A stretch of DNA of 57,323 nucleotides from a virus. The notes beneath the pieces were generated by a model that made no database searches, was not told the origin of the DNA, and saw only the letters and a list, made by a program, of their open reading frames with translations. A program made the translations under genes and the position numbers. Below are positions 2,878 through 50,331 of this stretch, one piece after another (the stretch's first letter is position 1; each line of letters opens with the position of its first letter). The DNA is taken from positions 1 through 57,323 of the IMG/VR virus record IMGVR_UViG_3300042295_002426. One strand, written 5' to 3'.

Positions 2878-3414
2878 ATTCCAAAAACGGCCATTGAAAC
2901 AAAGGAAACTTCACCTCCTAGCGGGTGAAGGTGGCAGCACCCAATGACCGGTTGTCTCTTCAGCGGCACAAACCTTGAGGAGTTCGCCGCCTGCGTTCAG
3001 CGCGCCCTGCTCGATCTGGGCGAGGACCCGTCCCTCGCAAGGGACCAGATCCACGAGACGACTGCGAAGAGCCTGTTTGAGCGAGGCCATCATGACCTCG
3101 TCCAGACCGTGAAGAAAGTCCCCCGGGCGCCCGGCCAATACGCCTCCGGCGCCAAGGCTGACTTCCTCAAGTGGTGGCGCGAGAGCCCCGTTTACGGACT
3201 CATCCACGGCAAGGCGAGCCGGGGCGAGGCCGTGTTCGTCGAGCAGGCGGAAGGGGATCGCCGAGCGGCGATCTGCGTGAACTGTCCCCACAACGTCATC
3301 CCGGCCGGGAACGGGTGGCTGCAAAACTGGACCGACGGCCAGATGCTGAAGTCGGTCGAGGGCCGCACTACCGCGAGCCAGGATCGCCTCGGGTTTTCCT
3401 CCGTAACCCCTTGA
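2878..3414 (+). pseudogene. Decayed, 3'-truncated copy of the prophage two-CxxC protein (51404-52063)
   Basis: From about 2905 the translation aligns with the intact gene at 51404-52063: ETSPPSG, then RWQHPMTG, and later nearly identical stretches such as ADFLKWWRESPVYGL and VIPAGNGWLQNWTDGQMLKS. Two lesions show decay. An in-frame TGA at 2926-2928 replaces the Trp codon of the intact copy (GGW versus GG-stop). The frame also diverges after SQDRLG and ends SSVTP, losing the second CxxC pair. Translation could restart at ATG 2944, giving 156 residues. It lies just outside the attachment site, so it is a relic of a related element at the same tRNA. Confidence 0.75.
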
Positions 3415-3425: not shown

Positions 3426-3467
3426 AGCCAACTGTCGGACTCGAACCGACGACCGGCTGATTACAAA
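3426..3467 (-). other. attL: displaced 3' half of tRNA-Thr(UGU)
   Basis: On the minus strand the sequence reads as the 3' half of a tRNA: anticodon loop TTTGTAA (3467-3461, anticodon TGT), anticodon-stem 3' arm TCAGC, T-arm GTCGG-TTCGAGT-CCGAC and acceptor 3' arm AGTTGGC plus discriminator T. The bases on the 5' side of the loop do not pair with TCAGC, so the 5' half is absent. Tyrosine integrases commonly recombine in the anticodon or T loop of tRNA genes and leave such a fragment at the distal end. Given its orientation, the intact tRNA-Thr should lie beyond the right edge next to the integrase. Confidence 0.8.
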
Positions 3468-3514
3468 GCACACGTTTCGGTATTAAGATCCCTATTTGGC
3501 GGGCTTTGCGGGCC

Positions 3515-3560: not shown

Positions 3561-3854
3561 TCAGCAGTCGCTGGCGACCGGTGATGCCACCGTTGCACCC
3601 ACTCTTACACCGTTCTCGAAGGAGCGTTTTACGGAGAGGTTGGCGAAGGTCCGGTCTTTCGAGGCGTAGCAGTTTGCCCCGGTCGTCGTGTTGGCCGCGT
3701 CGAAGATTTCCAGCTCGCGGGAGCCGAGCCAGACCTCGGTCGGCTGGATGCCCTGGCGAACGGCCTCGGCGATGAGGCGGTGGATCTCGGCCGTGAGGGA
3801 TGCAAACTCGGCCGCGGACCTATGGGTGCGGTACGGGACGATGGTTTCGCTCAT
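3561..3854 (-). CDS. Hypothetical phage protein, 97 aa
   Basis: The start chosen is the ATG of MSETIVPYRTH; the longer frame to 3899 runs into the regulatory repeat upstream. The protein is soluble, with an N-terminal helical part (AAEFASLTAEIHRLIAEAVR) followed by a mixed section (PTEVWLGSRELEIF). No family recognised. It is the first gene inside attL and is transcribed toward attL, opposite to its neighbour at 3923. It could belong to the lysogeny and integration control group. Confidence 0.6.
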   Translation of the reverse strand: MSETIVPYRTHRSAAEFASLTAEIHRLIAEAVRQGIQPTEVWLGSRELEIFDAANTTTGANCYASKDRTFANLSVKRSFENGVRVGATVASPVASDC

Positions 3855-3863
3855 CGGGCGGGA

Positions 3864-3911
3864 GCATTTTGAGTTGTCATCGGTAAGGAGTCTGGGCAAA
3901 AACGTGCTAAG
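3864..3911 (+). repeat. Regulatory direct repeat, copy 1
   Basis: GCATTTTGAGTTGTCATCGG, then TAAGGAGTCTGGGCAAAAACGTGC. It matches copy 2 at 4252-4297 at roughly nine of ten positions. It contains an AAGGAG ribosome-binding-site-like core and lies upstream of the rightward gene at 3923. It may be a duplicated promoter or leader, or an operator read by one of the small regulators here. Confidence 0.6.
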
Positions 3912-3922: not shown

Positions 3923-4243
3923 ATGAGCGATCATGACTTCAACCGTCCCTTCCTCGATTTGGATTCGATGGAACTGTTTACGGCGATTCGCCTGAAGGAT
4001 GCGCGGAGGTTCGGGCGGACCGTCAGGGCTTTCCATCTCTCCAATCGGGAGTACCAGCACCGCTTCAACGAGCTTGGAGCGAAGAATAATATGAAGCCGC
4101 CTCCAAGCAGCTACATTCACATCATGCCGGGCTATCTGGTGGTGCGGAACCTGGGGACCGCGCGACAATACGAGACTTGGATGCCGAGTGATGTGTTCGA
4201 GGAATTGTATGAGAAGAAGAAGAACTCGGGGACAAGCTCGTGA
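3923..4243 (+). CDS. Hypothetical phage protein, 106 aa
   Basis: Starts at the first ATG of ATGAGCGATCATG, giving MSDHDFNRP; a start at the second ATG, 9 bases later, is also possible. The protein is basic and charged, without membrane segments. It contains AFHLSNREYQHRFNELG and MPGYLVVRNLGTARQYETWM and ends in a lysine-rich EKKKNSG tail. No family recognised. It lies directly downstream of the first copy of the duplicated regulatory sequence and is followed by the second copy and another small gene, so the two are probably co-regulated. Confidence 0.6.
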   Translation: MSDHDFNRPFLDLDSMELFTAIRLKDARRFGRTVRAFHLSNREYQHRFNELGAKNNMKPPPSSYIHIMPGYLVVRNLGTARQYETWMPSDVFEELYEKKKNSGTSS

Positions 4244-4251
4244 GCCACGAG

Positions 4252-4297
4252 CGTTTTGAGTTGTCATCGGGAAGGAGTCGGGGCAAAACGTAGCATG
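4252..4297 (+). repeat. Regulatory direct repeat, copy 2, overlapping a start codon
   Basis: Reads CGTTTTGAGTTGTCATCGGG, then AAGGAGTCGGGGCAAAACGTAGC and ATG. It is the near copy of 3864-3911. Its last bases include the ATG at 4295, so the repeat supplies the leader of that gene. The AAGGAG core lies 17 bases upstream of the ATG, long for a functional Shine-Dalgarno, which favours an operator or promoter role. Confidence 0.6.
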
Positions 4298-10734: not shown

Positions 10735-10792
10735 GATCGCGGGGTGCTGAGGATTTACGCCTTGCCCCTCCTCGCTCCTACCCTCGGCTCCG

Positions 10793-10867
10793 TTCCCGCC
10801 GAAGGCCCGGGGTCGGTGGGGGTTCGGCTCCCTTCCCGCCGAAGGCCCGGGGTCGGTGGGGGTTCGG
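10793..10867. repeat. Two-copy GC-rich tandem repeat, 40-base period
   Basis: A 35-base identical unit beginning TTCCCGCCGAAGGCCCGGGG occurs at 10793-10827 and 10833-10867. The unit ends exactly where the methyltransferase remnant loses similarity to its family. Similar CCTTCCCGCCGTAGTCCCGG sequence recurs near 16351, so this is probably a REP-like dispersed element that mediated rearrangement. Confidence 0.7.
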
Positions 10868-11595: not shown

Positions 11596-13284
11596 TTACC
11601 CTAGTTTCTTAAGTCCCTTGTCGCATTCCGTGAAGGGACATTTCTTGTTCCGCAATCGCTCTGAAAGGCTGTTCAATTCTCGCGATTTTTCATATTCAAT
11701 ATCTTGAAGTCTTGAAGCTTCGGGAGCGATTGGGTTGTATACTTCTCTGCGGATGCGACCGGCCAACGCTTGCTGCTCTGGGGTTCTTTGACTTGGATGC
11801 GGGAGACCCGCTGCCTGAATCCTCCTTTGAAACTCAGAATCAGCTTTAGATAAAAGTGCTTCTAGTTCATCTTTCGATTGCTTGAATTCATTGCATGCCT
11901 CGTTGTAGATTCTAATCAAATCTGCGCATGGATCAGCGCTGCATCCGGTTAGGAAGAGTCCTAAATAGTCAACGGCGTTCAACCCATTATTTCCAACGAA
12001 ACCGTACAGATTATCCCCACCGCTGTCCGCGATGGGATCCCGATTGATCCACCTGCCGAGCACGGCTACGTAGAACCGATATCCATAGTTGCCCCACCCC
12101 GTCTCCGCGTCCCGGAACTGCCCCTGGAACCCGAAGTCCCACGCGTAGCTTGATGTGGAGCGCGGCGAGAAGTCCGCCGCCATGATCCGCCGAACCCCGA
12201 AGGCGGCGTAGGCGTAGCGCTCCAGGATCGTGCCGGACGTGTTCAGCACCGCCGTGCCATTGAAGTAATCCATCGTCGCGTAGAGCCGCTCGTCCAGCGT
12301 GCCGTTTCCATCGGTATCCCGGTCACGCAGGATCAACTCGTCCCGATGCCCCGGTCGCTCGCCCCACAGATAGGAGCGGGAGGCGGTGGTGGCGGAGCCA
12401 ATCCGTTCTTCCAAAGGCTTCCAGCGGTCGCTCCAGTAGGTGTGGGTCACGACACTCGCGGATTCCGTCGTGATCCGGCGGGAGAGGCCATCAAAGGCGT
12501 TCTTTTGCACGGTCACGCCGTTCTCATCTTTCACTTCGACGAGTCGGTTCCAGGCATCCCAAACAAGGGTGAAGTGTTTGCTCCAGTCGCCTCCGGCTCC
12601 GGGGCGGATCTTGATCGCGTTCCCGGCGCGGTCGTATTCGATGGCCTGGCTGGATCCGTCGATTTGGGTCAATTGATTGTCCCGGTTGTTCGAGCGGGTT
12701 TGATCGAGGACAGGTGAGCCGTTCGCTTTCTTCTGATACGCGAGCCAGTTCCCGACAGGATCGTAGGTGAAGGTCTCGTCTTCCTTCGGCGTTCCGCCGA
12801 TCGCCGTTCGGTTGGTGTTCAGCGTCCCGACCGCATCGCCTTTCACCTGATACAATCCATCGTATTGGTAGGCCTCATCCTGCCCCGTCGCGGCGACGAG
12901 GTTCTTCTTCCACGTCCGGTTCGACGCTTCGTTGAAGCCCCACTGCCAGGCATCGATGGGCGTGCCCGTTGAAACACTCTGCCATCGCATCTCTTGCACC
13001 CGGCTGAAGCGGTCGTAGCCGTCGTAAGGGTCTCCGGAGTCGCCCATGCTGCCTCCGCCCGGCCTGATCATCGACATCTTTACGTTCGGTTGCGGATAGG
13101 CAATCTCGATGAACCTCGCGAGACCCGCCCGGGTGTATTCCACCTTGTTCCCCGGTTCGCCGGAGAGGGCCACGGACTTCACGAGACTGAAGGAATCCTC
13201 GATGCTGTCGCCCGCACCGTAGGCAAGGTTCACGACCCGTCCGTTCGGATAGGTGATCGAGGTGCGTCGTGCTGTGTTGCTCAT
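11596..13284 (-). CDS. Rhs/YD-repeat protein, short form, tip 1
   Basis: 562 residues from MSNTARRT. Residues 1-~415 are YD-repeat and Rhs-core sequence (AGLARFIEIAYPQPN, YQYDGLYQVKGDAVG, EYDRAGNAIKI, YDGLSRR-like segments) ending at the conserved FQGQFRDAETG, NYGYRFY, GRWINRDPI motif. The last ~120 residues form a variable tip (CADLIRIYNEACNEFKQSKD, then a coiled-coil-like region), presumably an effector. Full-length Rhs proteins are over 1000 residues with an N-terminal half; here only the C-terminal core is kept, so it may be a tip donor rather than a stand-alone toxin. The core duplicates that of 13639-15372. Confidence 0.85.
   Translation of the reverse strand: MSNTARRTSITYPNGRVVNLAYGAGDSIEDSFSLVKSVALSGEPGNKVEYTRAGLARFIEIAYPQPNVKMSMIRPGGGSMGDSGDPYDGYDRFSRVQEMRWQSVSTGTPIDAWQWGFNEASNRTWKKNLVAATGQDEAYQYDGLYQVKGDAVGTLNTNRTAIGGTPKEDETFTYDPVGNWLAYQKKANGSPVLDQTRSNNRDNQLTQIDGSSQAIEYDRAGNAIKIRPGAGGDWSKHFTLVWDAWNRLVEVKDENGVTVQKNAFDGLSRRITTESASVVTHTYWSDRWKPLEERIGSATTASRSYLWGERPGHRDELILRDRDTDGNGTLDERLYATMDYFNGTAVLNTSGTILERYAYAAFGVRRIMAADFSPRSTSSYAWDFGFQGQFRDAETGWGNYGYRFYVAVLGRWINRDPIADSGGDNLYGFVGNNGLNAVDYLGLFLTGCSADPCADLIRIYNEACNEFKQSKDELEALLSKADSEFQRRIQAAGLPHPSQRTPEQQALAGRIRREVYNPIAPEASRLQDIEYEKSRELNSLSERLRNKKCPFTECDKGLKKLG
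12028..13284 (-). repeat. Rhs core direct repeat, copy A (copy B 14116-15372)
   Basis: About 1.25 kb of Rhs core is repeated at a constant offset of 2088 bases, without visible indels and with only scattered substitutions. Copy A ends where the reading frame switches from GRWINRDPI to its private tip. A third, short fragment of the same boundary sequence lies at about 16254-16316. These blocks are long enough for homologous recombination to exchange tips. Confidence 0.85.
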
Positions 13285-13344
13285 CGCGTCAGGGAGTTTA
13301 TGAGATGCCGTTAAGGCTGCAATAAAGTGTCTAAAGACGCAAAC

Positions 13345-13620
13345 TTACTCACGCCCTGGTTTTCGAATGAAAACAACGGTGGTTTGTTTTGGCGAATAAT
13401 CGATAGACTTGATTTGAAAATCCCCGTCGGAATGATAAGTGAAAATCACATTCTCTGAAGAGTTTTCCAAAACCCGGTAATACGGTGAAAGAGGATTTCT
13501 TTTTTGTTGAACTCCATTCGGCCACTTCTCGGGAGTAATATCTCTTGTAGTTGCTTTTCCGAGTAGAATTAGACATGCAATAATTGCGACGCACGAAACA
13601 ATAAGAGAAGATATCTTCAT
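13345..13620 (-). CDS. Membrane-anchored protein downstream of Rhs tip 2 (candidate immunity protein)
   Basis: 91 residues. A single N-terminal transmembrane helix (SLIVSCVAIIACLILLG) precedes a small beta-rich domain (ENVIFTYHSDGDFQIKSIDY, TTVVFIRKPGRE). It starts 18 bases after the Rhs2 stop and is AT-rich. Its layout and end pattern resemble the protein at 15491-15808 (VIF...DF.V..I...VQF.R), whose upstream Rhs tip is homologous to this one. The matching pair of tips and partners supports a toxin-immunity reading, but no family is recognised. Confidence 0.6.
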   Translation of the reverse strand: MKISSLIVSCVAIIACLILLGKATTRDITPEKWPNGVQQKRNPLSPYYRVLENSSENVIFTYHSDGDFQIKSIDYSPKQTTVVFIRKPGRE

Positions 13621-13638
13621 AAATCTTTCGTATCTTTA

Positions 13639-15372
13639 CTACGGTGTTCCGCTTCCAACAGGGCAACAGCAAGATGGTGGCTCAGCAGCTTCGGGGCAGG
13701 CGCAGCGGGTGACGCAGGATATTGCAAGCGGATCGCTCAACATTCCCGCCATTTGCCCTTCGATGTTTGCCTTCATATCCTTGAAAGCTTCGTCCCAGCC
13801 ATGTGCTCCAGAAGCCAAGTTTAAAGCTTCATTTACGAGACTTCCTGCCATTGCGAGTGACGGGCTTCTCGCATGAATCAATGTCGATACGCAATTGACA
13901 AAGCAATGCATTTGTTTGTCTCTGACGTAAGTGTCGCCACCGACGCTACAAGGAGGAAACAAAGTCTCTGCGAGCTCCATAATTGCTTTGTGTATCAATC
14001 CTTCGGCGAGGGCGATTAACGCTACAACTAATGTAGGCGACAGCAATCCCAAATAGTCGAGATCGTTTACTCCACTATTCGCCGCGAACAAATAAACATT
14101 CCACCCGCCCGTCTCCCCGATAGGGTCGCGGTTGATCCACCGCCCCATCAGCGGCACGTAGAAGCGGTAGCCGTAGTTATACCAACCCGTCTCCACATCG
14201 CGGAACTGTCCCTGGAACCCGAAGTCCCACGCGTAGCTGGACGACGTCCGCGGCGAGAAGTCCGCCGCCATGATTCGCCGCACTCCGAAGGCCGAGTAGG
14301 CGTAGCGCTCTAGGACGGCTCCCGAGGTGTTCAAGATGGCCGATCCGTTGAAGTAGTCCATCGTCGCATAGAGCCGCTCGTCCAGCGTGCCGTTGCCATC
14401 GGTGTCCCGATCACGCAGGACCAGTTCATCCCGGTGCCCCGGTCGCTCGCCCCACAGGTAGGAGCGGGAGGCGGTGGTCGCGGAATCCACCCGCTCTTCC
14501 AAAGGCCTCCAGCGGTCGCTCCAGTAGGTGTGGGTCACGACACTTGCGGATTCCTTGGTGATCCGGCGGGAGAGGCCGTCGTAGGCGTTTTTTTGCACGG
14601 TCACGCCGTTCTCATCTTTCACTTCGACGAGTCGGTTCCAGGCATCCCAAACAAGGGTGAAGTGTTTGTTCCAGTCGCCTCCGGCTCCGGGGCGGATCTT
14701 GATCGCGTTCCCGGCGCGGTCGTACTCGATGCCCTGGCTCGATCCGTCGATTTGCGTCAATTGATTGTCCCGGTTGTTCGAGCGGGTTTGATCGAGCACG
14801 GCTGAACCGTTCGCGTTCTTCTGATAAGCGAGCCAGTTCCCGACGGGATCGTAGGTGAAGGTCTCGTCTTCCTTCGGCACTCCGCCGATGGCCGTTCGGT
14901 TGGTGTTCAGCGTCCCGACCGCATCGTCTTTCACCTGATACAATCCATCGTATTGGTAGGCCTCATCCTGCCCCGTCGCGGCGACGAGGTTCTTCTTCCA
15001 AGTCCGGTTCGACGCTTCGTTGAAGCCCCACTGCCAGGCATCGATGGGCGTGCCCGTTGAAACACTCTGCCAGCGCATCTCTTGCACCCGGCTGAAGCGG
15101 TCGTAGCCGTCGTAAGGGTCTCCGGAGTCGCCCATGCTGCCCCCGCCAAGGCGGATCATCGACATCTTCACGTTCGGTTGCGGATAGGCTATCTCGACGA
15201 AACGGGCGAGACCCGCCCGGATGTAATCGACCTTGTTCCCCGATTCGCCGGAGATGGCCACGGACTTCACGAGGCCGAAGGAATCCTCGATGCTGTCGCC
15301 CGCACCGTAGGCAAGGTTCACGACCCGGCCGTTCGGGTAGGTGATCGCCGTTCGTCTCGCCGTGTTGCTCAT
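13639..15372 (-). CDS. Rhs/YD-repeat protein, short form, cysteine-rich tip 2
   Basis: 577 residues from MSNTARRTAITYP; a TTG start seven codons upstream is possible. An in-frame TGA about 15 codons further upstream closes the frame, so there is no longer Rhs N-terminus. The core is nearly identical to 11596-13284 up to GRWINRDPIGE. The ~140-residue tip carries a hydrophobic helix (TLVVALIALAEGLIHKAIME), then RDKQMHCFVNCVSTLIHARS and a Cys-rich tail (CVTRCACPEAAEPPSCCCP). The same tip family is present in 15799-16338. The toxic activity, if any, is unknown; conserved His and Cys residues suggest metal binding or disulfides. Confidence 0.85.
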   Translation of the reverse strand: MSNTARRTAITYPNGRVVNLAYGAGDSIEDSFGLVKSVAISGESGNKVDYIRAGLARFVEIAYPQPNVKMSMIRLGGGSMGDSGDPYDGYDRFSRVQEMRWQSVSTGTPIDAWQWGFNEASNRTWKKNLVAATGQDEAYQYDGLYQVKDDAVGTLNTNRTAIGGVPKEDETFTYDPVGNWLAYQKNANGSAVLDQTRSNNRDNQLTQIDGSSQGIEYDRAGNAIKIRPGAGGDWNKHFTLVWDAWNRLVEVKDENGVTVQKNAYDGLSRRITKESASVVTHTYWSDRWRPLEERVDSATTASRSYLWGERPGHRDELVLRDRDTDGNGTLDERLYATMDYFNGSAILNTSGAVLERYAYSAFGVRRIMAADFSPRTSSSYAWDFGFQGQFRDVETGWYNYGYRFYVPLMGRWINRDPIGETGGWNVYLFAANSGVNDLDYLGLLSPTLVVALIALAEGLIHKAIMELAETLFPPCSVGGDTYVRDKQMHCFVNCVSTLIHARSPSLAMAGSLVNEALNLASGAHGWDEAFKDMKANIEGQMAGMLSDPLAISCVTRCACPEAAEPPSCCCPVGSGTP

Positions 15373-15490
15373 GGTGTCTGGTTTCGTGAACAAGGGCGGC
15401 GCTTCCCGTCCTGCGGTATTGTCGATTCAAGATTCTCGGACTTCCTCAGTCTCTTTCATGTTCCGACTTGAAAGATCCTTCGAGGTTTCA

Positions 15491-15808
15491 CTATTTAGAG
15501 GCGGATCCTCGTCTCCGGAACTGAACCATGTAAATGTCACCGGATCGCTCTATTTTTTCCACAACGAAGTCCGGTGGTATGGGGGACGAGAATATCACCA
15601 CCCCGCTTTCCTTCTCAAAGACTGAGAGGGTTTCCGAAAGAGCATTCTCCTTCATTGCAACGCCTGCAGAATCAAACGCCGTCGAATTCATAGGGATGTT
15701 GGTTAAATCGTTGAGGATAAAATTTCCCAACAGAAATAAGGCCAGAGATGCGATTACCGCAATCATGATCACCGTTCCGGTGGCTGCGAAAATCTTTTTC
15801 ACGGACAT
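15491..15808 (-). CDS. Membrane-anchored protein overlapping orphan Rhs tip 3 (candidate immunity protein)
   Basis: 105 residues from MSVKKIFAATG; an upstream ATG at 15844 is less likely. One long hydrophobic segment (TVIMIAVIASLALFLLGNFI) anchors a soluble domain (SETLSVFEKESGVVIFSS, DFVVEKIERSGDIYMVQFRR). Its start overlaps the end of the orphan Rhs tip by 10 bases, so the two are translationally coupled. Similar in plan to the protein at 13345-13620. Immunity to the cysteine-rich tip is the working guess. Confidence 0.6.
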   Translation of the reverse strand: MSVKKIFAATGTVIMIAVIASLALFLLGNFILNDLTNIPMNSTAFDSAGVAMKENALSETLSVFEKESGVVIFSSPIPPDFVVEKIERSGDIYMVQFRRRGSASK

Positions 15809-16338
15809 GGACAGCAGTCTTTCTGGGTGGATCCCAGAGGGCATTCACAACGATCTTTGCAAGTGTCCCAAAATGCAGATCCCTGAACTTGGCCGTATAT
15901 GTTTGAAGCCATGTCTCTCGCTGTGGATTCCCATCCTTCTCCGTCAATTAATAGATCCCAAGCCTCTTTCCCCAAGCTGAATAGCATTGCCATGGCTGAG
16001 TGGAAAATGTGGACTCGAGTAGAAATGCAATTGACGTAGCAATGCCTCTGTTTGTCTTTCCATATATCTTTATCGGGACAATGGGGAAATATCTCTACGG
16101 AGCGACGATAAATCAATTGATGAAGAATTCCTTCAATTATTGCAATGATTCCGAAAGCTGCCATCAGTCGGGGATCGAAAAGTCCGTATCTATCATTAGA
16201 ATTGATTGGATTGTTGGCTAGAAAGCCGTAGAGAGTTGAATCGGCGACCTCGCCGATAGGATCCCGATTGATCCACCTGCCAAGAAGCGGGACGTAGAAT
16301 CGGTAGCCGTAGTTACTGCTAGGGATTTCCTTTTTCAT
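15799..16338 (-). pseudogene. Orphan Rhs C-terminal tip 3
   Basis: Only the last ~22 residues of the Rhs core remain (NYGYRFYVPLLGRWINRDPI), followed by a tip homologous to that of 13639-15372: AAFGIIAIIEGILHQLIYRR, DKQRHCYVNCISTRVH, CKDRCECP, CCPCP. An ATG at 16338 (MKKEIPSSN) could start a 179-residue protein, but the upstream core is replaced by REP-like sequence containing CTTCCCGCCGTAGTCCCGG. I treat it as a displaced tip left by earlier recombination. It might still be expressed or serve as a donor. Confidence 0.7.
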
Positions 16339-16557
16339 CCCCTCGGCCCCCTTCCCGCCGTAGTCCCGGGGGCAGGGAGATGTTGATGGGTCCCGAGGGC
16401 TTTTATTCGTTTTGTCTCGAAGCGTCAAGCATTTCTGATTGGTAAAATCGGACGCTCGTTCCGCACTCATGCCGCCTCTCGCTTCGTTTCGCTCCGAGCG
16501 CGGGCACCCGACCGGCCCCCCCCTTCCCACGCGGCTTCCTTCGGCTCCCCAGACGTC

Positions 16558-17670: not shown

Positions 17671-18354
17671 TCAACCGAGAGTGGGGGCGCCGTGGGCCGC
17701 CAGGGCATCGCGCAAGACTAGGCAATGCCAGTCCCCCTTGATCTCCTCGATCACTTCGCCGGCGCGGCAGAGAGTGTGGTCCTGTGAATCGGCTGAATAC
17801 CAAAGCCGTCTGGACTCGACCTCGATCCCGGCAATGGCCGCCATCTCCTGCCAGGTCAACCGGCGGAGCTGCACCTCACCGTCGTCCCAGATGATGCGGT
17901 CTCCCTCGATCCGGCCGGTCCTCGCACCGTGGCGGCGCCACCAGGCCGAATAGACCGTGCGTCCGACCCGGTCCATCGGTCCGGGCTCCCCCTTCGGGGT
18001 CTTGAGTTGCCCGGCGATCGCCATGGTCATCACCGAGCTGTTCTCCGCGACTGCGGTGGCAACCGGCCCGGTCATGACGTCCCGATCGAGTCGTTCGATG
18101 GCATCGGGGGCAAGATCGCGACCGTAGATGGGGGACTGGATCGCGAGCGACCACGATCGATCGATGGCGGGACGTTTGTCGATGACGAGGGCATCGGTGT
18201 AGTCTGACTTCGGATCCGGAGTCCAGGTCTCGGGGGAAGCGTAGCCGGAAAGGCACGAGGAGCATCCTGCGACTCTCCGGAGCGGGGTCCGCTCCTCGTG
18301 GTGGCCACCTAGACCGAAACCGAGCAGGGAGACGTGTTCGGTTTTGCCGTTCAT
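17671..18354 (-). CDS. Hypothetical phage protein, 227 aa
   Basis: Overlaps the preceding gene by four bases (ATGA). No family recognised. It contains CSSCLSGYASPETWTPDPKS, then DYTDALVIDKRPAIDRSWSL and AIQSPIYGRDL, and in the C-terminal half WWRRHGARTGRIEGDRI, LRRLTWQEMAAIAGIEVES. A CxxC pair occurs at about 31-34. The alternation of aromatic and charged residues suggests a globular enzyme or DNA-binding protein. Part of the leftward operon controlled from about 18650. Confidence 0.6.
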   Translation of the reverse strand: MNGKTEHVSLLGFGLGGHHEERTPLRRVAGCSSCLSGYASPETWTPDPKSDYTDALVIDKRPAIDRSWSLAIQSPIYGRDLAPDAIERLDRDVMTGPVATAVAENSSVMTMAIAGQLKTPKGEPGPMDRVGRTVYSAWWRRHGARTGRIEGDRIIWDDGEVQLRRLTWQEMAAIAGIEVESRRLWYSADSQDHTLCRAGEVIEEIKGDWHCLVLRDALAAHGAPTLG

Positions 18355-18605
18355 GCCGCACCTCCTTCCAGGTCGGCACCCACGATCTCCAGGAACTCGT
18401 CGAGTTGAGACTCGGCACCGAGTTCCCAGAGATGGGTGGCGATCACGTTCACTGCTTCATGCATCCCCTTACTCCGAAAGACTGCGTCAACGAAGTCGCA
18501 AGCCTGGGCGCGGGGATCGGTCAGGTCGAGGGTTTGGTCTGGGGACTGATCGTGGTTCAGTCGGTATTTCGCCGCCCGAAGGACGGCATCAAGGTAGGTG
18601 TTCAT
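18351..18605 (-). CDS. Hypothetical phage protein, 84 aa, first gene of leftward operon
   Basis: The ATG at 18605 (MNTYLDAVLRAAKYRLNHDQ) lies about 37 bases downstream of the predicted start point of a promoter at 18649-18677; an upstream in-frame ATG at 18677 would read through that promoter and is rejected. Acidic helical protein (ACDFVDAVFRSKGMHEAVNV, LDEFLEIVGADLEGG). Stop overlaps the next start, implying coupled translation. Function unknown; early regulatory role inferred from position. Confidence 0.6.
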   Translation of the reverse strand: MNTYLDAVLRAAKYRLNHDQSPDQTLDLTDPRAQACDFVDAVFRSKGMHEAVNVIATHLWELGAESQLDEFLEIVGADLEGGAA

Positions 18606-18648
18606 GATGTTGGATCCCGGATCCGCCGGGACGGGTTGATTGGACCGT

Positions 18649-18677
18649 TTTTTAAATTGAATACAGTCATCGGTCAA
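18649..18677 (-). promoter_or_regulatory. Predicted promoter of the leftward operon
   Basis: Minus strand -35 TTGACC (18677-18672), a 17-base spacer and -10-like TAAAAA (18654-18649). The surrounding stretch is much more AT-rich than the phage average and contains the repeated ACCGTTTTTTA / ACGGTTTTTTA on the plus strand. Confidence 0.45.
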
Positions 18678-18710
18678 ACGGTTTTTTATAGCGAAAACAA
18701 ATGGGCATTT

Positions 18711-18805
18711 GGTCCCGCGGGACTGGTCCCGTGGTCCCGTGCGGGACTAGGACGGGACTGGTCCCGTGGTCCCGTCGTCCCCTATAGGGGGACGGGACCG
18801 GGACC
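18711..18805. repeat. Iteron-like GGTCCCG / CGGGACC array
   Basis: Five GGTCCCG copies on the plus strand (18711, 18725, 18733, 18760, 18768) and inverted CGGGACC copies at the right end, plus several CGGGACT copies. One 23-base block starting CGGGACTGGTCCCGTGGTCC is repeated exactly at 18718-18740 and 18753-18775. It lies in the gap between the leftward operon and the probable small terminase gene. Such arrays serve as replication origins, repressor operators or terminase recognition sites. Confidence 0.8.
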
Positions 18806-18894
18806 AAACCAGTCCACGGTCGAGACGAGACCAAGAACGGCAGGACGGACAGAGTTGTCTGTTGAAATCGCAGAGAGAAAAGGTAGGCTGAACC

Positions 18895-19416
18895 ATGGCC
18901 ACAGCGATGAGGACACCGGCACAGGACAGGGCAATGCGATTCCTCCCTCAGGCTATCACCGAGGGCTGGACTATCGCCAAGCTCTCCAGGGAGGCCGGGA
19001 TCGGGAAGGACACCGCCCGGAAGCTCCTGCAACAAAGCTCCGAAAGAAATCGCCGCTCCATCGGCTCCGAACTCGACCGGGAAGGTAACCGGGCGGTGGC
19101 GGTGGCACGGCAAGTCAGGGACGGGCAAATCGAGCAGGCCGCGCGAATCGAGGCACTCACCGAAAAGGCCCTCAAATCCCTCGAAGAGAAGGCCGCCCAG
19201 GGTGAGTTGTCGATCCGCGATCTCGGCGATCTCGCCAAGCTCCGCGAGAAACACTGGGCGCACGTCAAAGACATGGCCGGGCTCAACTTGGCGGAGAGGC
19301 TTGCGGTGGCGAAGGCGAAGGGCGATGCCGCCGGTCGTGGCTTCGCCGGAGCCCTCCTCGATGCCACCTCGATCGACCTGGGTGACGGGGTTTTTGATGT
19401 GGTAACTGATGGTTAA
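18895..19416 (+). CDS. Probable terminase small subunit / HTH DNA-binding protein
   Basis: 173 residues. An N-terminal helix-turn-helix (RFLPQAITEGWTIAKLSREA, then GIGKDTARKLLQQ) precedes long helices (VRDGQIEQAARIEALTEKAL, AAQGELSIRDLGDLAKLREK) that could oligomerise, the plan of small terminase subunits. AAGGTAGG lies 8 bases before the ATG. It is adjacent to the iteron-like array, a possible packaging or origin recognition site, and 1.6 kb from the large terminase, though on the opposite strand. A replication initiator or regulator cannot be excluded. Confidence 0.55.
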   Translation: MATAMRTPAQDRAMRFLPQAITEGWTIAKLSREAGIGKDTARKLLQQSSERNRRSIGSELDREGNRAVAVARQVRDGQIEQAARIEALTEKALKSLEEKAAQGELSIRDLGDLAKLREKHWAHVKDMAGLNLAERLAVAKAKGDAAGRGFAGALLDATSIDLGDGVFDVVTDG

Positions 19417-19773: not shown

Positions 19774-20190
19774 ATGAAGCCAATCATCCTCCTTTTCACC
19801 GTCCTGTTTTTCCAGAATGTGATCTACGCCCAATACGAGACCTTGATCTACCAGGCTGCGGATGGCCCCCTTGAAATCGAGATTCCCGAGGGAAAAGTTC
19901 TCGAAGTTGGGACATTTACCCACAGTGCTCTTGAGCGGGATTGTTTTCTCACATTGGTGAAAAGCGGTCGTGAAATCCCAATTCTCGTTTCTCTCTTCAT
20001 CTCAAACCATCTAAATGATGGAGCCTTGATGCCTTTCGCAGGCCCGGCGGTTTTGAAGGTTTCCTCATCTTTTCCTAATGGGAGAGCTGCCCTCACCTAT
20101 CGAATATTCAAAAACGAGGATCCGGATGCCGAACCGGTGCGCCCCATCATCCAGGTTCAAACGATCTGCCGCTGCAAGAAGGGTCGTTGA
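19774..20190 (+). CDS. Secreted protein of unknown function, 138 aa
   Basis: A clear signal peptide (MKPIILLFTVLFFQNVIYAQ, cleavage after IYA) is followed by a small beta-rich domain (PLEIEIPEGKVLEVGTFTHS, REIPILVSLFISNHL, LTYRIFKNEDPD) and a C-terminal CRCKKGR. The start is the ATG after a C/A-rich leader, and a frame extension upstream is low complexity. It lies between imperfect copies of a ~40-base sequence (19706 and 20212) and has lower GC than its surroundings, so it looks like an inserted cargo gene (moron) in the packaging region. Confidence 0.72.
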   Translation: MKPIILLFTVLFFQNVIYAQYETLIYQAADGPLEIEIPEGKVLEVGTFTHSALERDCFLTLVKSGREIPILVSLFISNHLNDGALMPFAGPAVLKVSSSFPNGRAALTYRIFKNEDPDAEPVRPIIQVQTICRCKKGR

Positions 20191-21044: not shown

Positions 21045-22829
21045 TTACCTCCCCGCCACCCCCGCCACCCGCCGCATCCGCTCTAGGTAATTGCCCCGCC
21101 TCGCCGTCGGCAGAAAGAAACTCTCCTCCGGCCGCACCGCCGGCATCGCCCGGGCATCGATGTAGGGCCGGATGAGCTTCCGCCGGATCGCCAGCTCCAC
21201 CGCGCAGACCGCAGAGTCGAGGTCGTCTGGCGACCGGTCCTGGTTGCGTGCCTTCCAGTCGTCCTTCTCCTCGGCCTTCATCCGGCCGTTCTGCTTCAGA
21301 GTGCGCCGAGTCGCCACCTGATGGGCGATCGCGTCGGTGATTCCTCGCATCCGGCCCTGTCGCACGATGGCAGCGAAGTTCGCGAGCAGCTCGGTGGCGT
21401 GATCGTTGTAGTGCTGCCGTGCGGTGTGGCCCGAGGCCGAGACCGGACGCTCCGTCGAGGGGCCGGAGAAGAAGACCCGGCACGCGCCGCGCTGCCCCAT
21501 CTCCTGCTCGATGCGGTCGACCTGGGCCCCCTGATTGCCGGTGGCGTCTGCCGCGAAGTCCTTGATCGGGATGCCCCATTCCCGCAGCTTCGTGGCGGTC
21601 TGGGTCGCGATCTGGCCGGAGATGTCGCCCGCGGTGATCTTCACGGTGATGGGATGGACGTTGAGGAGATTCACCCAGGGATGTCCGGACGGGCCGATGC
21701 CGACGCGGATCCGGGTGAGCCGCACGCCGTCCCGGCCGCCCGACGGGTCGAGCCCGGCGAGGTCGGTGGTGGGCTGCCCCAGCAACTCGGGGGCCAGTTG
21801 CCCGCCGGACGAGCGCAGATCCTGGGGCGAGAGGAGCGTCTCGACGATGCCCGAGGGAGGCATGCGCCCGATCCCGTAGGTCCAGAGCTGCATCGAATCC
21901 TCGCCGAAGTTCGCGATGAGGTCCTCAAGGTGCTCCTTCCCGGCGAGGTAGGTGATGGTCGGATCCTCGATCGCCGGGGACTTCCGCCCATCGAGGACGA
22001 GGCAGACGCCGTGCGCCCCGCGCCAGGTGTCGGAGGTCTTCCACTGGTCGGGCTCGTTCTTTTCGACGGTCTCGATGTCGAGCGGGCCGCCGTCGAGGAG
22101 GCAGTGGGGGATGGAGTGCTTGCCCAGCGGGGAGAACCAGGAGTCGGGGTTGCCGAAGAAGATCTCTTTGTATTCACCCGAGGCTCCGAAGTTCGCCTTC
22201 ACCGAGAGGATGGATTCCGAGCACTTCTGCGGCTCATCGACGGCGAAGCGGTTGCGTTTCTGGTGGGCCCCGATCTTCGACTTCAGATCCTCGTTCGACT
22301 CGCCATCCTTCGTCGAGATGCAGACGACGCCGGCGGTCTGGCCCTCGCGGTCCACCGTGATCAATCCGGGGGCGGGGGCCTTCACGACATGGCCGACCCG
22401 CAGCTCCGGCGGCAGGTGGGAGTGCCACTTCTTCAGCGATCCGAAACAGCGGTCGTCGTGCATCTTCAGCGGCGAGGTGCAGAGCGAGATCTTCGTCACC
22501 GCCGGGGCCGCCATCAGGTCGAAGAGCAGCACCGCCGCCACCGTGCCGGATTTCCCCGAGGAGGAGGATCCCCAGATCGTGGTGATGTCGTGGTCGCACC
22601 AGAGGTCGATGATCTCGTTCGACCAGCGGTTGAAGCTGAAGACATGGGCCGGGAGCGCGAGCGAGATCGCGGAGCGCAGGTGATCATCCGGCGAGAGGGC
22701 CTTTGGTGCCTTCGCCCGCAGGGTGGGGTTGGCGTAGAGCACCAGGTCGATCAGGGACGGGTGGATGAACTTTTTCGGATCCCAGCGGAGGCCGTATTTC
22801 TCGATCAGATCGGCGGATTTCTGCGACAT
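21045..22829 (-). CDS. terL: Terminase large subunit
   Basis: 594 residues from MSQKSADLIEKYG; the ORF extension to 22901 overlaps a promoter and is rejected. The ATPase has Walker A WGSSSSGKSG (about 86-95) and Walker B-type RFAVDEPQ (acidic pair 198-199). The RNase H-like nuclease shows DLAGLDPSGG (D361), IKDFAADATG (D428) and SPDDLDSAVCAVEL (535-538). Its job is to cut concatemers and pump DNA into the prohead through the portal (52344-54602). Unusually it is on the minus strand, divergent from the capsid operon, and the small subunit candidate is on the plus strand. Confidence 0.9.
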   Translation of the reverse strand: MSQKSADLIEKYGLRWDPKKFIHPSLIDLVLYANPTLRAKAPKALSPDDHLRSAISLALPAHVFSFNRWSNEIIDLWCDHDITTIWGSSSSGKSGTVAAVLLFDLMAAPAVTKISLCTSPLKMHDDRCFGSLKKWHSHLPPELRVGHVVKAPAPGLITVDREGQTAGVVCISTKDGESNEDLKSKIGAHQKRNRFAVDEPQKCSESILSVKANFGASGEYKEIFFGNPDSWFSPLGKHSIPHCLLDGGPLDIETVEKNEPDQWKTSDTWRGAHGVCLVLDGRKSPAIEDPTITYLAGKEHLEDLIANFGEDSMQLWTYGIGRMPPSGIVETLLSPQDLRSSGGQLAPELLGQPTTDLAGLDPSGGRDGVRLTRIRVGIGPSGHPWVNLLNVHPITVKITAGDISGQIATQTATKLREWGIPIKDFAADATGNQGAQVDRIEQEMGQRGACRVFFSGPSTERPVSASGHTARQHYNDHATELLANFAAIVRQGRMRGITDAIAHQVATRRTLKQNGRMKAEEKDDWKARNQDRSPDDLDSAVCAVELAIRRKLIRPYIDARAMPAVRPEESFFLPTARRGNYLERMRRVAGVAGR

Positions 22830-22864
22830 GCTGGCAGGATAGCAGAAAGTCGCGTGAAAAACAG

Positions 22865-22894
22865 TTGACTTTTGATGCCACAAAAGGCGATATT
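22865..22894 (+). promoter_or_regulatory. Predicted promoter of the virion operon
   Basis: -35 TTGACT (22865-22870), an 18-base spacer containing TGATGCCAC, and -10 GATATT (22889-22894). It lies in the 273-base gap between the divergent terminase and capsid genes, about 200 bases upstream of the capsid start. The rest of the gap is GC-rich with GAGGAGGGG and CCGGGAGGACGG tracts and no gene. Confidence 0.5.
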
Positions 22895-23102
22895 CGCGCA
22901 TCGGGAGTTTTTTTCAGCCGGGGTCTCCGCCCGGCATCCAGATCGGGCTGATTTGGGGGACGCCGCCCCACGGGTCTTTAACCTTCTCACTTTGAGGAGG
23001 GGTTCTCCGTGACCGGGAGGACGGAAACGAAGCTGGTAGGCGCCGTCGTTTTTGCGACGCGCGATTTCCCCACTGGCATCACCACGCACCCCTTTTTCAG
23101 CC

Positions 23103-36784: not shown

Positions 36785-39700
36785 ATGGGCAACTTCTTCG
36801 AAGATTTCATTTTCTCCGCCAAGAACGGGCACATTTACCTCGGCGACTATGGGGAATGGACGCCCGAGGAAATCATCGATGGTTCTTGGCTGAAGCAGTT
36901 TCGGCCTTCTCCGAAACCCTCGGTGGCGCCCGCCCCAAAAGCAAAGCCGGGCGACACCGAATCGGCCAAAGGGGCGCAACCCAGCCCATCGACCCCGGCC
37001 CCGGAAGCGCCGCCGCCGGATCCCAGCCCGGAGCCTGCGGTAGCCACCCCAGCACCGATGCCCACTCTCGATGCGGTGATCGACCACGGCCAGAAAGCGG
37101 GCAAGTCTCCCGAGGAAATCGCGGAAGCCGCCAAGAAGTGGCGCGACAAGGCGAGGACCTGGGGCGAGGAAAACTTTCGCGAAACGGATCCAAACAAGTG
37201 GTTCGCCGGGAACCGCAAACTCGACGCGCGGATCCGCGACGAACTGGCCGCGATCCAAGGCCGCGAGGCTACCGAGCGCATCGCCACCGAGATCCGCGAC
37301 CCGGGCGATCGCCAACGCTTTGCCGAGCAGTATTCCCAGAGCAACGGCGATCTGAATGCCTTTGAAGAAGGGAGCCCGGCTCGATCTCTGGCCGAGATCC
37401 TCAACCAGGAGGTCTTTCAGTCGCCCAAGTTCACGCTGCGAGGCGGCGGATCGGGTCCCATGCCGTTCTCGACCGAGGCCGGTGTGCCACTCGGCGACTT
37501 CGAAACCCAAATCCGCCCCGAAGGTGATCTGGACGTCGTCATCCGCGTCGATGACGAGGAGAAGGGCAGCGTCAGGAAGGCGATCACGATTCCCGAGATC
37601 ACGGACGAAGACATCGAGGCGGCCCGGAGGAAGGCGGAGGAGGAGGCGACGCAGCTTCGCCAAATCGAGAGAACGACGAACCAAGGACTCAGAGACGACC
37701 TCGCGGATGAGCCGGTTCAGCGGGGGTATGACGTTGGCTACCAGGGAAATCTAAAACTCCGAAAGGAGAAGGCCGAAAGAGCAGCCGAGACCGCCCGACT
37801 CAAAGCCGGACAATCCGAGTCCCGCGCCAACGTGCTTGCCGATCCCGGTCGCGGGCGACTTCTCCTTCTCCGCGAGCAAGTCGAGGAACAGATCAAAGCC
37901 GACAAAGATCTCAAGAAGGTGGTGGGTGATGTCGCCCTCGGCGAGGACTTCTGGCGGGGCGTGCAGCAGACCCATCTCGGGGCGCGCATGGCGGTCGCCG
38001 ACGCCACCGGCAACGAAGAGGAGAAGACGAAAGTCCGCGAACTGATCGGCGATCTCAGCCAGATCTATCCCGGCTCGACGAACCTCCAGTTCCGGGGCGG
38101 GGCCGGTGCGTTCGCCAGCGACGCTTCGATGGTGCTCGGAGGGATGCTGCCGACGATGATGGTTTCGCTGGGGACCGGGGGAGCGGCGGCGGTGTCTGGG
38201 GCAGCCGTTGGCGGCCTCACTCGAACCGCGGCCCTTTCGCCTATCGGTTTGAGTGCCTACGGCAACGCCTACGCCACGATGCTGAACGAAGCCGACGCCC
38301 TCGACGAGATAGGGCGGCGCGAGGAGGCCGCGCAACGTCGCAAGGACGCCCGCGTCTACGCATTGGCCCAGGCAGGGGTGGAAGTCGGCACCGAACTGAT
38401 CTTCAAGGAGGAAATGTTCCGAGTCGGAGGCAAAGGGTTCTTCTCGAAAGTGGGTGCCGGAGCCGCGCAGAACACCGTCGAGGAACTCCTCGCGGCGACA
38501 GGCAATGCCGAGCTCGACCGTGAGTTCCGCGATGAGTTGCCGAAAGAGGGTCAGATCGCCAGGGAAACCCTCTTGGGGACCGTGGTGGGCGGGCTGATGC
38601 AAGTGCCCGGAGGGGCGGTGGAAGTGTTTCTCCCGAAACCCCAGCCGGGCACTCCCGCAGGAAACGCGACACCGCCACCCGGGACGTCTCCCGGCGCAAC
38701 ACCCCCGCCTTCCTCCGCGCCACCTCCCGGGGCGACGCCTCCCCCCAGCAGTCCTCCACCTGGAACTGCGCCGCCACCGCCCGCTACGTCATCTCCGCCT
38801 TCGTCTGCGCCCCCGCCCGACACAACCCCGTCTGCCCCGCCACCGGGGACGCAGTTGACGGTGCCGGGCGACGCTGCGCTCTACCAGATCGGTGGCCGTT
38901 CGTTTGCGTGGACGCGCTGGGGATGGTTCGACCGAGACGCCAACAAACTCATCGATCCTCTGGCAGAACTTGGATTGGTCGTGCAACTGGACGAGGCACG
39001 CCGACGCCTCAACTCGGGAGAGCAACCCGTCAGCCCTGAGGTCACCCTCAACCCAGGCGAGACGCCCCGGATTCTCAGCATCGACGGCAACCGGTTTTTC
39101 ATGATCGACCCGGCGGGGAGAGGGTGGCTCGAAGTCTTCCCAGCGACCGGCAAGCCGTCGCAGTTGGTCAACTTCGCCCTCGAAGGCTCCAGCGGCGTCG
39201 AGACGCTCCGCCGTCTCCAGGCGAAGGTGGCGGAGCTGAGAGGAGAGACACCCGCTGATCCAAACGAAACTCCGGACCCGCCGGTCGAGCCCACTCCGCC
39301 GGTCGAGACGCCATCCAACGAAAGCGACCCAGCCCCAGAAATTCCCGAACGCCCAGCCGATGGCACGGTTTCCAGCGGCAAACCCAACGGGGCAAAGGCG
39401 CGGTTTCGGTGGAGGATCGTTTCCCGTTCCGACATCGAGGCGATGGTGGTTCGTGACATCGAGGAGGCTCAGACTCGCCAGCGGAAAGGCAACGTCGCCA
39501 GCGATGAGCAGCGCGAGCGCATGGCTACCGGTCTCGACCCTGATCTGGTTATGGAGTCTCCCGTCTCAAGCATGGGGGCTCCGGCGGTTTTCGAGGGGAA
39601 GGTTCTCGCTGGGAACGGCCGAGCTGATGGGATCTCAGAAGCCTATCGGCGGGGACTCGCCGCCGATTACGAAGCGAGGATCCGAGCATTCGCCACCGAG

Positions 39701-42700
39701 CGCGGGCTCGATGTCCCAGACGAGCCGATCCTGGTTCGCGAAATCATCGACTTCACCCAGGGCGACGCGCGGAGTTTCGTGGTGGAGTCCAATCCGAAGC
39801 GGGGCGGAATGCTCGCGGAGTCCGTTTCCGAACAGGCCCTCCTCGACTCCGAGACCATCGGCGACGAGGTCCTCGCCAATCTCACCTTCACGGCGGATGG
39901 AAACCTTTCGGCCGGATCACTCGCTGCGGTGGCGTCGAAACTGGAAGAGGCGAACCGCGGGATCACGCGCACGCTCTCGGGTCAGTTCGACCGCTCCGAG
40001 GCTGGCCGCCGGGTCATGGCCGCGTTCCTTTCTCGGCTCGTCTCAAAGGCCGGGCGAGACGCCTCCGATGTCGCGTCGATCCTCGAATCCGATGGCGGCA
40101 AGCGCGCGGTGTCGGCGATCGCCCAGGCGGCTCCGCGACTCTCGAAACTCGATAACGATCTCTCGCTCGCATCGCCCATCGTGGAGTCGCTCTTGGAATT
40201 CAAATCCGGTCTCAGTGCGGTTTCAAAGGGAGAGTTTGCCAACGTAAGCGACTGGTTTGAGAACCGGACCAGTGAGCTGCTCGCGGCCAATCTCGATCCC
40301 GTCTCGCGAGAGATCCTCAAGGAAATGGCCGGGTCGGTGACTTCCGGGGCGGCCATGAGAGACCTCCTCGCCGAATATCTCGTGGACGCCGAGGCGGAAC
40401 AAAAGGAGCGTGACAGCGCATCTTCAACAGGTGATATTTTCGGTGATGAGCGAGCCAATCAAGCCCCCGAAGACATCTTCCGAAAGCTCGGTAGGATCAA
40501 AGGCCCGGACCCCGGTGTCGGCTCTGGAACTGTTGAGGCGAGCCAGCGCGAGACTGGAGGCCAAACGGAAGGCAGGCCAACCACCGGCCCAGCTGTAGGC
40601 CCGGAGGCCGAAGGCCAACTCATCCCCGAGGGCGAGATGCCCTTCAACCTCTCCGGCGAGACCATCGTCGAACCGCCGCCGGTCGAGCCCGAGGATACCC
40701 GCACCGATGCCGAGCAGGATGCGGACAGCGGACAGGGCCGCCTCTTTGAGGATCGCATCACCACGCCGCCACTCCGGCCGCGACAGGACCGGCTGGGCCG
40801 GTTGGGCCGGTTGGTCGATGGGTTCTCGGCGCGTCATCCCGAGAAACGCCCCGAGACGCCTCCTGCCCGCAACGAGGCGCAAGAGGAGCACCTGCGTGCC
40901 ATCAAGGCCGGAGTCGAGGAATACTTCGGCGGCGACGTCCCCGCCGGTGTTCGCGTTGTGTGGGATCCCGCGGCGGTTTGGGATGCCCAGTTCCACCGCG
41001 CGATGCGAATCATCGAGGCCAACGCGGCACTGATTAGGCGCGGCGAGATTTCGTTCAAGCTGGACCATGAGATTGGTCACCTCCTTTTCTCGGACAAACA
41101 GTTCGCAGCAGACTTTGAGACGCTCTGGAAGTCGCTCCCGAAAACCGTGCAAGATCGGATCAGCCGCGGCGTCCAGGGTCATGTCGAGCGGGGATACTAC
41201 GCCGAGGACGAGGCCTTTGAGGAAACCCGTGTCAGGGCTCTCGAACACATCCGCAGGGCGGCCTCCAGCGAAAATGCCGACCCTGCGATGAAGCGTGCGT
41301 GGCGCCGGTTTGTCCGCGCCGTGATCCGTGCGTTCAATCGTCTCACCGGCCGCAAGCCGGTCGACCCGCAGCGTCTCGCCGCGGCCATGATCGAGATCGG
41401 TGTCGCGAGGATGCGTGGCGATTCGGGCAGCGCCGGTGTCGGTAGTATGTCTTCCGTTGTCGAGTTCGAGACGTTCAAGGATTGGGCGCTTCGCGAAATC
41501 GCTGACAATCAGTTCCTCCAGGAGGACGCGGGGCGTCTCTGGGTGGCGTCCGATGTGCGGGGCAACGTCAACGAGGTCTTCGGTTCGTTCGCAGATGCCG
41601 ACGAATACTTCCGGACGATGTCAGGGAAAGGCGAGTTTCTCTGGGATGTGACCGAATCCTACGAGCGAATGGTGGGCGGGATCCCTGCTCGAAAGCCGGA
41701 TGGACCGATCAAGGCAAGCGAGGCGAAGCAGGCTTTCTATGGGCTCGAGCCCATGCCTGGCGAAACGCCAAGCGAGGCCGGAAACCTCCCGCAACTCACG
41801 CCGATGGGCAGGCCCGTCACTCCGGCGGTGTTGCCGGACCATGCGCTCCGCTACGGCTTGCCTTCTGATGAGGATTCCGGCCGCGATGCCACCCCCATGC
41901 GTCGCGTCCCGAATCCGGGTAAGCCCTACCGGCCGGGGCAAGCGATCTTCTCGATTCGTGAGGCGGGCGAAGTCGGATGGGAAGACCGGGCGCAACGGTT
42001 GATGCGGCGCATCGATCAGATGTATGCGACCGGCCGGGTCGAAGAGGTCGAAGATCTCGAAGCTGAACTGGAAGCCATCCTTGAGCGAGCGGACACCGAT
42101 CTCGACGGGATGGACGAGGGCGACGACGCCGACCAGGTGAGGGAAATGCAGACCAGCGACCTGTCGGAGTTTGATTCCGCGCCGCCGGATCCCGAGGCGC
42201 AGCTGGTGCAGTTCTGGCTCCAGTGGAACGGTCAAGGCGGGCCGTCGTACATGAGGGAATTGGCGAGGCGAGATAACGCCACCTTCGGCCAATATGTCCG
42301 GAACTCCCTTGGTGATTCCGCCTACGTCCTCAATGATGGAGTCACCGACGAACAGATCGAAGAAGCCGCCGAAGAGGCCTTCGCCAACTACGAGCGAAGG
42401 AGGAACGCGATGCTTCGCGCACTTGAGCGTCGCCGTAGCATCTCATCGATCGCCGCGGATGACCCAGGCCAGACCACGCCTGAACCACCGCTCTCCATCG
42501 ACGGTCCGATCGAATCGGACATCGACGCCGCGGCCGAGGCCCTAGCCAATCTGGAGTCGGCCTTCCGGGTTTCCTTCTTGGTGGGCGACTTCGACGGGGC
42601 GGCATCCGCGATGGACTCCGCGAACGTCGAGACCTTTACGGCCTTTGCCGAGAAGCTGATCCGGTTGGCCGCGGCCGGTGACCCAAGCGCCGAAGGAATG

Positions 42701-46887: not shown

Positions 46888-47322
46888 TTACCTCGGATCT
46901 GTCCTGTGAATTGATATTTCATTCGACAGGGCTGTTGCCGTCGCTTGTATGTAAATTCTCTTCTTTGATATCGTAATCGGGTGCTTCGAACTGAATTTGA
47001 GCAGATCCCAGTGTGAGAGTTCAAGAGTATAGCTACCTTCTGGGAGATCGAGTTCCAACGAATCTCCAATCTTCAGTTCTTTGGGAGTTCCTCCGTCCAC
47101 CGATATAGTGATTTTGCCACTTAGCGCATGCGTGACGCGACTTGAATTATTGATTACTACAAGATTAGGGCTCTCATAAGGAACTTCAATGACCTTCTGA
47201 GATTCTATGATCTTATTGCCATCGACCTTCGTCGTTGATTTAGAGGATGGCCTGAGGAAGAACGCAATCACGACAAGTGCTATTGCGCAAATGACGATTT
47301 TAGGATTAATGGACTTTTTCAT
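46888..47322 (-). CDS. Cassette gene: membrane-anchored protein, 144 aa
   Basis: One N-terminal transmembrane helix (KIVICAIALVVIAFFLRP) and a beta-rich outer domain (PNLVVINNSSRVTHALSGKI, DSLELDLPEGSYTLELSHWD). No family recognised. Starts 10 bases downstream of the site at 47332-47420 and ends at site 1. AT-rich compared with the phage genes. Confidence 0.65.
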   Translation of the reverse strand: MKKSINPKIVICAIALVVIAFFLRPSSKSTTKVDGNKIIESQKVIEVPYESPNLVVINNSSRVTHALSGKITISVDGGTPKELKIGDSLELDLPEGSYTLELSHWDLLKFSSKHPITISKKRIYIQATATALSNEISIHRTDPR

Positions 47323-47331
47323 AGATTCTTA

Positions 47332-47420
47332 GCCGAACGTCTAGCTCATCCACGGCGGGGAGGGAAGTCCGAAATCAAACGGGAACGTTATCCGCCGTTG
47401 GATGGAGCGTCTTGTTCTGC
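47332..47420 (-). other. attC-like site 2
   Basis: Minus strand: GCAGAACAAGACGCTCCATC, CAACGGCGG, loop, CCGCCGTGGATGAGCTAG, ACGTTCGGCT. Arms (CGCTCCATCCAACGGCGG / CCGCCGTGGATGAGC) pair with a bulge; R'' GCAGAAC and R' GTTCGGC. Confidence 0.75.
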
Positions 47421-47461
47421 TAGAATGTGTTTTCGTATGGTGCAATCGATGGAGAAAAATG

Positions 47462-47923
47462 TTAGATGTCTTGATATGCTCTGAGTTCCGACGCCTTTGC
47501 ACTGAGACCCTCAATTCGCAGGTGCTCCTCATCATAGGACGTGTGTCGGATCGTGTTGAGGATCCACCCGTCAGATCCATTGCAATCATAGAGAACTTCC
47601 TGCAGAATTTCGAGGGCGAAATAGCTTAACGCCGCTTCCCGCAACTTGGGATCTTCTAGAATCTTATCTACGGAGGGCCAATCGCATTCCCTTAAAGCTA
47701 TTTCGAAGTCTAACCCATCATCAGGGAATTTCCTCGCATCTTCGACAAACTCTTCTAACTCCGCGTCTAGAACTCGTCTAAGACACGAATGAGGCAACGT
47801 AAGCTCGTAAGCAAGATCTCGGACACCTGGTGTCCGCCAATGTTGGTCGAAGTTCATGTGGCGAACCGCGACCTTCTGAAGGTCGCGGTTCACGCCGTCA
47901 ATTGTGATCGTCGCACTTGTCAT
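47462..47923 (-). CDS. Cassette gene: soluble protein of unknown function, 153 aa
   Basis: MTSATITIDGVNRDLQKVAV, then GVRDLAYELTLPHSCLRRVL and YFALEILQEVLYDCNGSDGW. Cytosolic, acidic, mostly helical after a short beta start. No family recognised. The ATG lies about six bases from the R' box of site 3, typical of cassette genes, so there is almost no leader. Confidence 0.65.
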   Translation of the reverse strand: MTSATITIDGVNRDLQKVAVRHMNFDQHWRTPGVRDLAYELTLPHSCLRRVLDAELEEFVEDARKFPDDGLDFEIALRECDWPSVDKILEDPKLREAALSYFALEILQEVLYDCNGSDGWILNTIRHTSYDEEHLRIEGLSAKASELRAYQDI

Positions 47924-47928
47924 TTAGA

Positions 47929-48023: not shown

Positions 48024-48038
48024 TGGTTGAGGCATAGG

Positions 48039-48569: not shown

Positions 48570-48592
48570 TGGGCGGGTGACTTTGGTGCTTG

Positions 48593-49190: not shown

Positions 49191-49212
49191 GATAATGAGT
49201 GTGCAGTCTTTC

Positions 49213-50327: not shown

Positions 50328-50331
50328 TTTC

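Follow-up and report, generated by a model that had tools for sequence, protein, structure and literature searches.

The palindromic array and its clustering

The window analysed is the whole of a virus record, 57,323 bases in length. An intergenic gap at 18606-18894 separates a minus-strand ORF, with its ATG at 18605, from a plus-strand ORF that starts at 18895 and codes for an HTH protein of 173 aa (18895-19416). The ORF positions thus agree with the original prediction, in which a dense group of GGTCCCG repeats was placed between divergently oriented ORFs and next to an HTH-protein gene. To the left of the gap, the first and second ORFs of the divergent operon (18351-18605, 84 aa, and 17671-18354, 227 aa, both on the minus strand) gave no family match in scans of PHROGs, Pfam and NCBIfam, and the structural model of the 227-aa product was unusable (mean pLDDT, 31.6). 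On the right, the HTH gene starts 86 bp from the array, and its codon composition is coding-like. Between this gene and the gene for the terminase large subunit (21045-22829, minus strand) are located a staphylococcal-nuclease-like ORF on the minus strand and an ORF (19774-20190) with a signal-peptide-like start, which resembles a small secreted protein.

The array itself (18708-18808, no strand assigned) was delimited by repeat search, hexamer count and fold prediction, and contains ten GTCCCG hexamers, five pointing each way, arranged from left to right in the order + - + + - - + + - -. Two hexamer pairs abut without spacer. At least five copies of GGTCCCG had been claimed, and five were found on the plus strand at 18711, 18725, 18733, 18760 and 18768; the inverted form CGGGACC, also claimed, is present as two full, overlapping copies at 18793 and 18799, in addition to three copies of CGGGACT at 18718, 18742 and 18753. 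The exact repeat of 23 bases, CGGGACTGGTCCCGTGGTCCCGT, was recovered on the plus strand at 18718-18740 and 18753-18775, the two copies being 35 bases apart and 100% identical, and the first contains the perfect palindrome CGGGACTGGTCCCG, which occurs twice and has a two-base centre. The element proposed at 18711-18805 does lie there but is slightly longer, since its outermost 10 bases, TTTGGTCCCG (18708-18717) and CGGGACCAAA (18799-18808), are exact inverted copies that close the array at both ends. The array is directly adjoined on the left by an AT-rich tract (18641-18710, no strand assigned), detected by composition and repeat search, which carries two imperfect 22-base repeats (18644-18665 and 18678-18699) and, with 34% G+C, belongs to the lowest 0.3% of 70-base stretches.

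On both strands of the 57-kb window, the hexamer GTCCCG occurs 66 times against 68.5 expected, and only its clustering is therefore unusual: 10 of the 66 fall within 93 bases (18712-18804). With both strands counted, no 6-mer (10 copies here) or 7-mer (7 copies here) clusters more densely per 95 bases anywhere else in the window. As a control, Markov simulations of order 2, 3 and 5 (30 of each, giving 90 per word length) reached maxima per 95 bases of 9 for 6-mers and 6 for 7-mers. The observed cluster exceeds these controls, in support of the claim that the density is above chance.

The description as iteron-like, in contrast, did not hold. Iterons are regularly spaced direct repeats. Plasmid and phage iterons resemble the array in having many short copies beside an AT-rich tract, but here one half of the hexamers is inverted, neighbouring copies in places touch or overlap, the spacings between copies of the same orientation are irregular (14, 8, 27 and 8), and no helical phasing of the hexamers was detected (R=0.08, P=0.94). 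The array is real, striking and palindromic but, strictly speaking, does not qualify as an iteron array.

Self-pairing and distribution of the array

What distinguishes the element is its self-complementarity: in the predicted fold, one strand closes into a three-way junction. The predicted DNA fold of 141 bases has an energy of -44.4 kcal/mol (z -5.7), and none of 200 shuffled sequences was as stable. With DNA parameters the array gave the lowest energy among 2289 stretches of 110 bases (-43.1; mean -17.0, sd 4.9), and with RNA parameters the lowest among 5722 stretches of the same length (-80.0), the next separate place being at -64.0. After block shuffling that kept hexamers and spacers, however, 128 of 2000 sequences folded at least as well as the array, and so did 35 of 2000 after shuffling with random orientation. 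The fold is thus mostly a by-product of the inverted hexamers, and their arrangement adds only modestly, because the 128 block shuffles were equally stable. That the self-pairing, as a cruciform or an RNA three-way junction, serves as a structure-specific start signal read by the packaging or replication machinery is given little credence; if the fold itself were what is read, such a structural signal would be unusual in a tailed phage.

The array might instead give rise to an RNA, either a small RNA or the HTH-gene leader, that acts through the three-way-junction fold. The RNA fold on the plus strand (211 bases, z -7.1) and its lowest rank in energy are in line with such a structured RNA, but the same fold arises from inverted repeats in DNA, no Rfam family was matched at the gathering score, and scans for promoters and terminators found neither. 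The pRNA of phi29 likewise forms a three-way junction near the packaging genes, and the junction predicted here is similar, but the terminase large subunit is of another type, no Rfam match links the two, and the RNA form of the array is putative. A structured RNA is the least likely of all the readings, and a very improbable one.

Relatives of the array were sought in several collections. Exact scans of viral_contigs gave four loci for GGTCCCGTGGTCCCGT and one each for TTTGGTCCCGCGGGAC and CGGGACTGGTCCCGTGG, and when the surrounding sequence was viewed, none of these six carried a palindromic array. One (L019) is a run of the 8-base unit inside a long transposase-like ORF, two (L026 and L027) consist of one isolated match each within an ORF, and the remaining three (L018, L020 and L021) were judged on the surrounding sequence. 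In genome_contigs, which covers 84,980 species genomes, the 19-base core has a single locus, on a Streptomyces record, and the 700 bases inspected there show no array; that genome has two copies of the 14-base palindrome and three of its reversed control. By blastn, the array region gave no match to plasmids and a wider region none to phages, while at E<=1 two records of one phage matched 37 bases (18805-18841), nearly all to the right of the array. No description of the array was found in the literature searched, which is not proof that it is unpublished.

These searches bear on the possibility that the array is a passive or selfish palindromic repeat, a REP/BIME-like or MITE-like element of the host, which grew by local duplication, came to lie in an intergenic gap that tolerated it and does nothing for the phage. 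Its terminal inverted repeat, nested palindromes and exact duplication at a distance of 35 bases would fit this origin, and GC-rich nested palindromes in an intergenic gap are a feature shared with REP/BIME elements. REP sequences are described as abundant in the Verrucomicrobium O. terrae in PMC3733652, and this is relevant only if the host belongs to that group, which is a guess from protein style. Against a passive repeat, the array carries no GTAG tag, a target-site duplication was not seen by eye, and the single genomic match to the core stands without an array around it. Of the dispersed copies expected of REP, a search of the 57-kb window found none beyond the array. We consider this explanation unlikely.

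Replication genes and other features of the window

An AT-rich tract beside the array is expected of both an origin and a promoter. As an origin of replication, the array would provide either repeats for an initiator, flanked by an AT-rich region that unwinds, or a hairpin for initiation on single-stranded DNA. The tract that abuts the array agrees with this role, and so does the single-strand fold, which no other place in the window surpasses under DNA parameters. The replication-type genes (Sak4-like, exonuclease and primase/helicase), however, are located at 5.4-10.7 kb, 8 kb away from the array, and the cumulative G-C skew, which is weak evidence, shows no turn at 18.7 kb and peaks near 23 kb. 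Besides the lack of helical phasing, no cluster of DnaA boxes was detected at the array. The skew and the gene positions make an origin distinctly unlikely.

For the primase/helicase, 15 distant loci at 28-29% identity and 7 phage records were found, and the transposase at 1-1002 matched 2405 plasmid records, all at less than 60% identity. One minus-strand block of lower GC (11596-16530) carries three successive copies of RHS-core type with differing C-terminal parts, for the first of which an RHS family match was obtained; it represents a polymorphic-toxin-like cargo region within the virus record. The structural region includes a single ORF of 3317 aa (36785-46738), and between this long ORF and the portal-like ORF lies a second lower-GC block of minus-strand ORFs (46888-51203), which is also cargo-like.

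Other repeats were observed along the window. Two copies of one gene stretch (2993-3392 and 51525-51924), 48,532 bases apart, are 74% and 92% identical over two parts. The left copy breaks off near 3392, beside a stretch (about 3430-3470) that by eye looks like the terminal part of a tRNA gene, perhaps marking an attachment site or a prophage remnant; ARAGORN detected no tRNA in the window. The sequence TGATGCCAC occurs six times (0.27 expected), at 3516, 3582, 19458, 22873 and 33015 on the plus strand and at 51463 on the minus strand; the two copies beside the tRNA-like stretch are perhaps integrase arm sites, and the others are scattered. A tandem repeat with a 40-base unit (10784-10867, 2.1 copies) has a diverged third copy at 16343-16382. 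A block of 53 bases is repeated (83%) at 3849-3901 and 4236-4288, before two small ORFs and with TTTTGAGTTGTCATCGG in common, and is a possible regulatory site.

The HTH protein and the candidate packaging site

In the single-sequence AF2 model (mean pLDDT, 72.5), the 173-aa protein consists of an N-terminal HTH of three helices, two long helices forming a helical hairpin, and a tail of low confidence, an architecture resembling that of small terminases, and it is proposed to bind the array. It matched none of the small-terminase profiles of PHROGs, Pfam or NCBIfam, the weak matches being a transcriptional repressor (E 0.043, the best in PHROGs), an IS21 transposase (0.048) and HTH_26 (0.15). 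The structural comparison was dominated by chains with the HTH only or the helical hairpin only. The small terminase of G20C (4xvn) was aligned over both parts of the model (residues 15-144, 120 aligned, Z 4.9, rmsd 14.5), but is one of many rows of middle Z among 50, the top rows being unrelated helical proteins. The modelled structure is therefore compatible with a small terminase and proves nothing. Foldseek searches of two libraries with the model yielded nothing at E<=0.001. In sequence searches, the 11 pattern stretches from viral_contigs were not confirmed as relatives, none were detected in phages at E<=5 or in plasmids at E<=1, and among PDB sequences only three designed proteins appeared at E<=10.

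Since the weak matches of this protein include a repressor, and the gap separates divergent ORFs, the array may possibly serve as an operator, nearly as plausibly as for packaging. The HTH protein, or an unrecognised repressor, would then bind the inverted half-sites and regulate the divergent promoters on either side, the HTH gene being autoregulated. The two perfect palindromes count in favour of this, and a possible minus-strand promoter (TTGACC-17-TAAAAA) was read by eye in the AT-rich tract, but the scan reported no sigma-70-like promoter. Full sites are confined to the array, CGGGACNNGTCCCG being exact only there with one further site in the window at one mismatch, and the ORFs of the left operon match no regulator. 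Most phage operators carry fewer than ten half-sites, which also counts against this tentative assignment.

Of the three functions originally offered, origin, operator and packaging site, the last is somewhat favoured by two observations: the large terminase gene is close by, and the HTH protein resembles a small terminase in architecture. The large subunit was identified by a match to phrog_2 (E 1.5e-6 when the longer ORF 21045-22901 was used; 1.8e-6 in a second scan) and by the motifs GSSSSGKSG, which is Walker-like, and FAVDEPQ. Its gene lies 1.6 kb past the HTH gene, with the near end 2.2 kb from the array, and the array lies near terminase genes, as expected of a cosB or pac site. With this distance of 2.2 kb, against 8 kb for the replication genes, and with the small-terminase-like neighbour, our leading reading, at a probability of roughly 0.38, is that the array is a cosB/pac-like recognition site for packaging, used by the product of the next gene.

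By analogy with lambda cosB or pac in place and use, the array would be the cis-acting site of genome packaging, and the small terminase subunit would be the HTH protein, whose gene starts 86 bp to the right of the array. Several subunits of an oligomer would bind the inverted GGTCCCG half-sites, and the bound oligomer would anchor the large terminase and set the position at which the concatemer is cut. We infer all three elements, the identity of the neighbour, its binding to the array and the cutting nearby. The evidence is positional and points weakly to packaging: an intergenic array directly upstream of the HTH gene, the large terminase beyond it, and the modelled HTH and helical hairpin.

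Lambda cosB adjoins the small terminase gene. According to PMC4669245, the repeated TerS sites R3, R2 and R1 of cosB are bound by the winged HTH of TerS, and PMC7617512 is likewise cited in favour of a packaging site. Both cosB and the array consist of short sites in multiple copies, over about 120 bp in cosB, and the binding by a terminase HTH protein described for lambda (PMC4669245) is proposed here. The three R sites of lambda, however, have an IHF site between them, whereas the array has ten palindromic hexamers, no match to the IHF consensus at one mismatch within 17.5-20 kb, and a large terminase gene on the opposite strand. The nuclease-like gene and the small secreted-protein-like ORF intervene, and this gene order differs from the usual terS-terL. 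Also against a packaging site are the absence of a family match for the HTH protein, the very high rmsd of the G20C alignment, the abutting or overlapping, unphased half-sites, and the fact that no relative shows conservation. In favour of the packaging site, none of ten further ORFs scanned against PHROGs matched a small terminase.

The array is probably a docking site, of a known kind, for the virus's own proteins in a poorly known phage. The portal-like and capsid-like ORFs have no family match and are labelled from gene order and size, and neither they nor the large terminase have relatives in the collections searched. Should the array prove to be a packaging site, a phage with such isolated terminase, capsid-like and portal-like proteins would gain a cis signal that can be tested.
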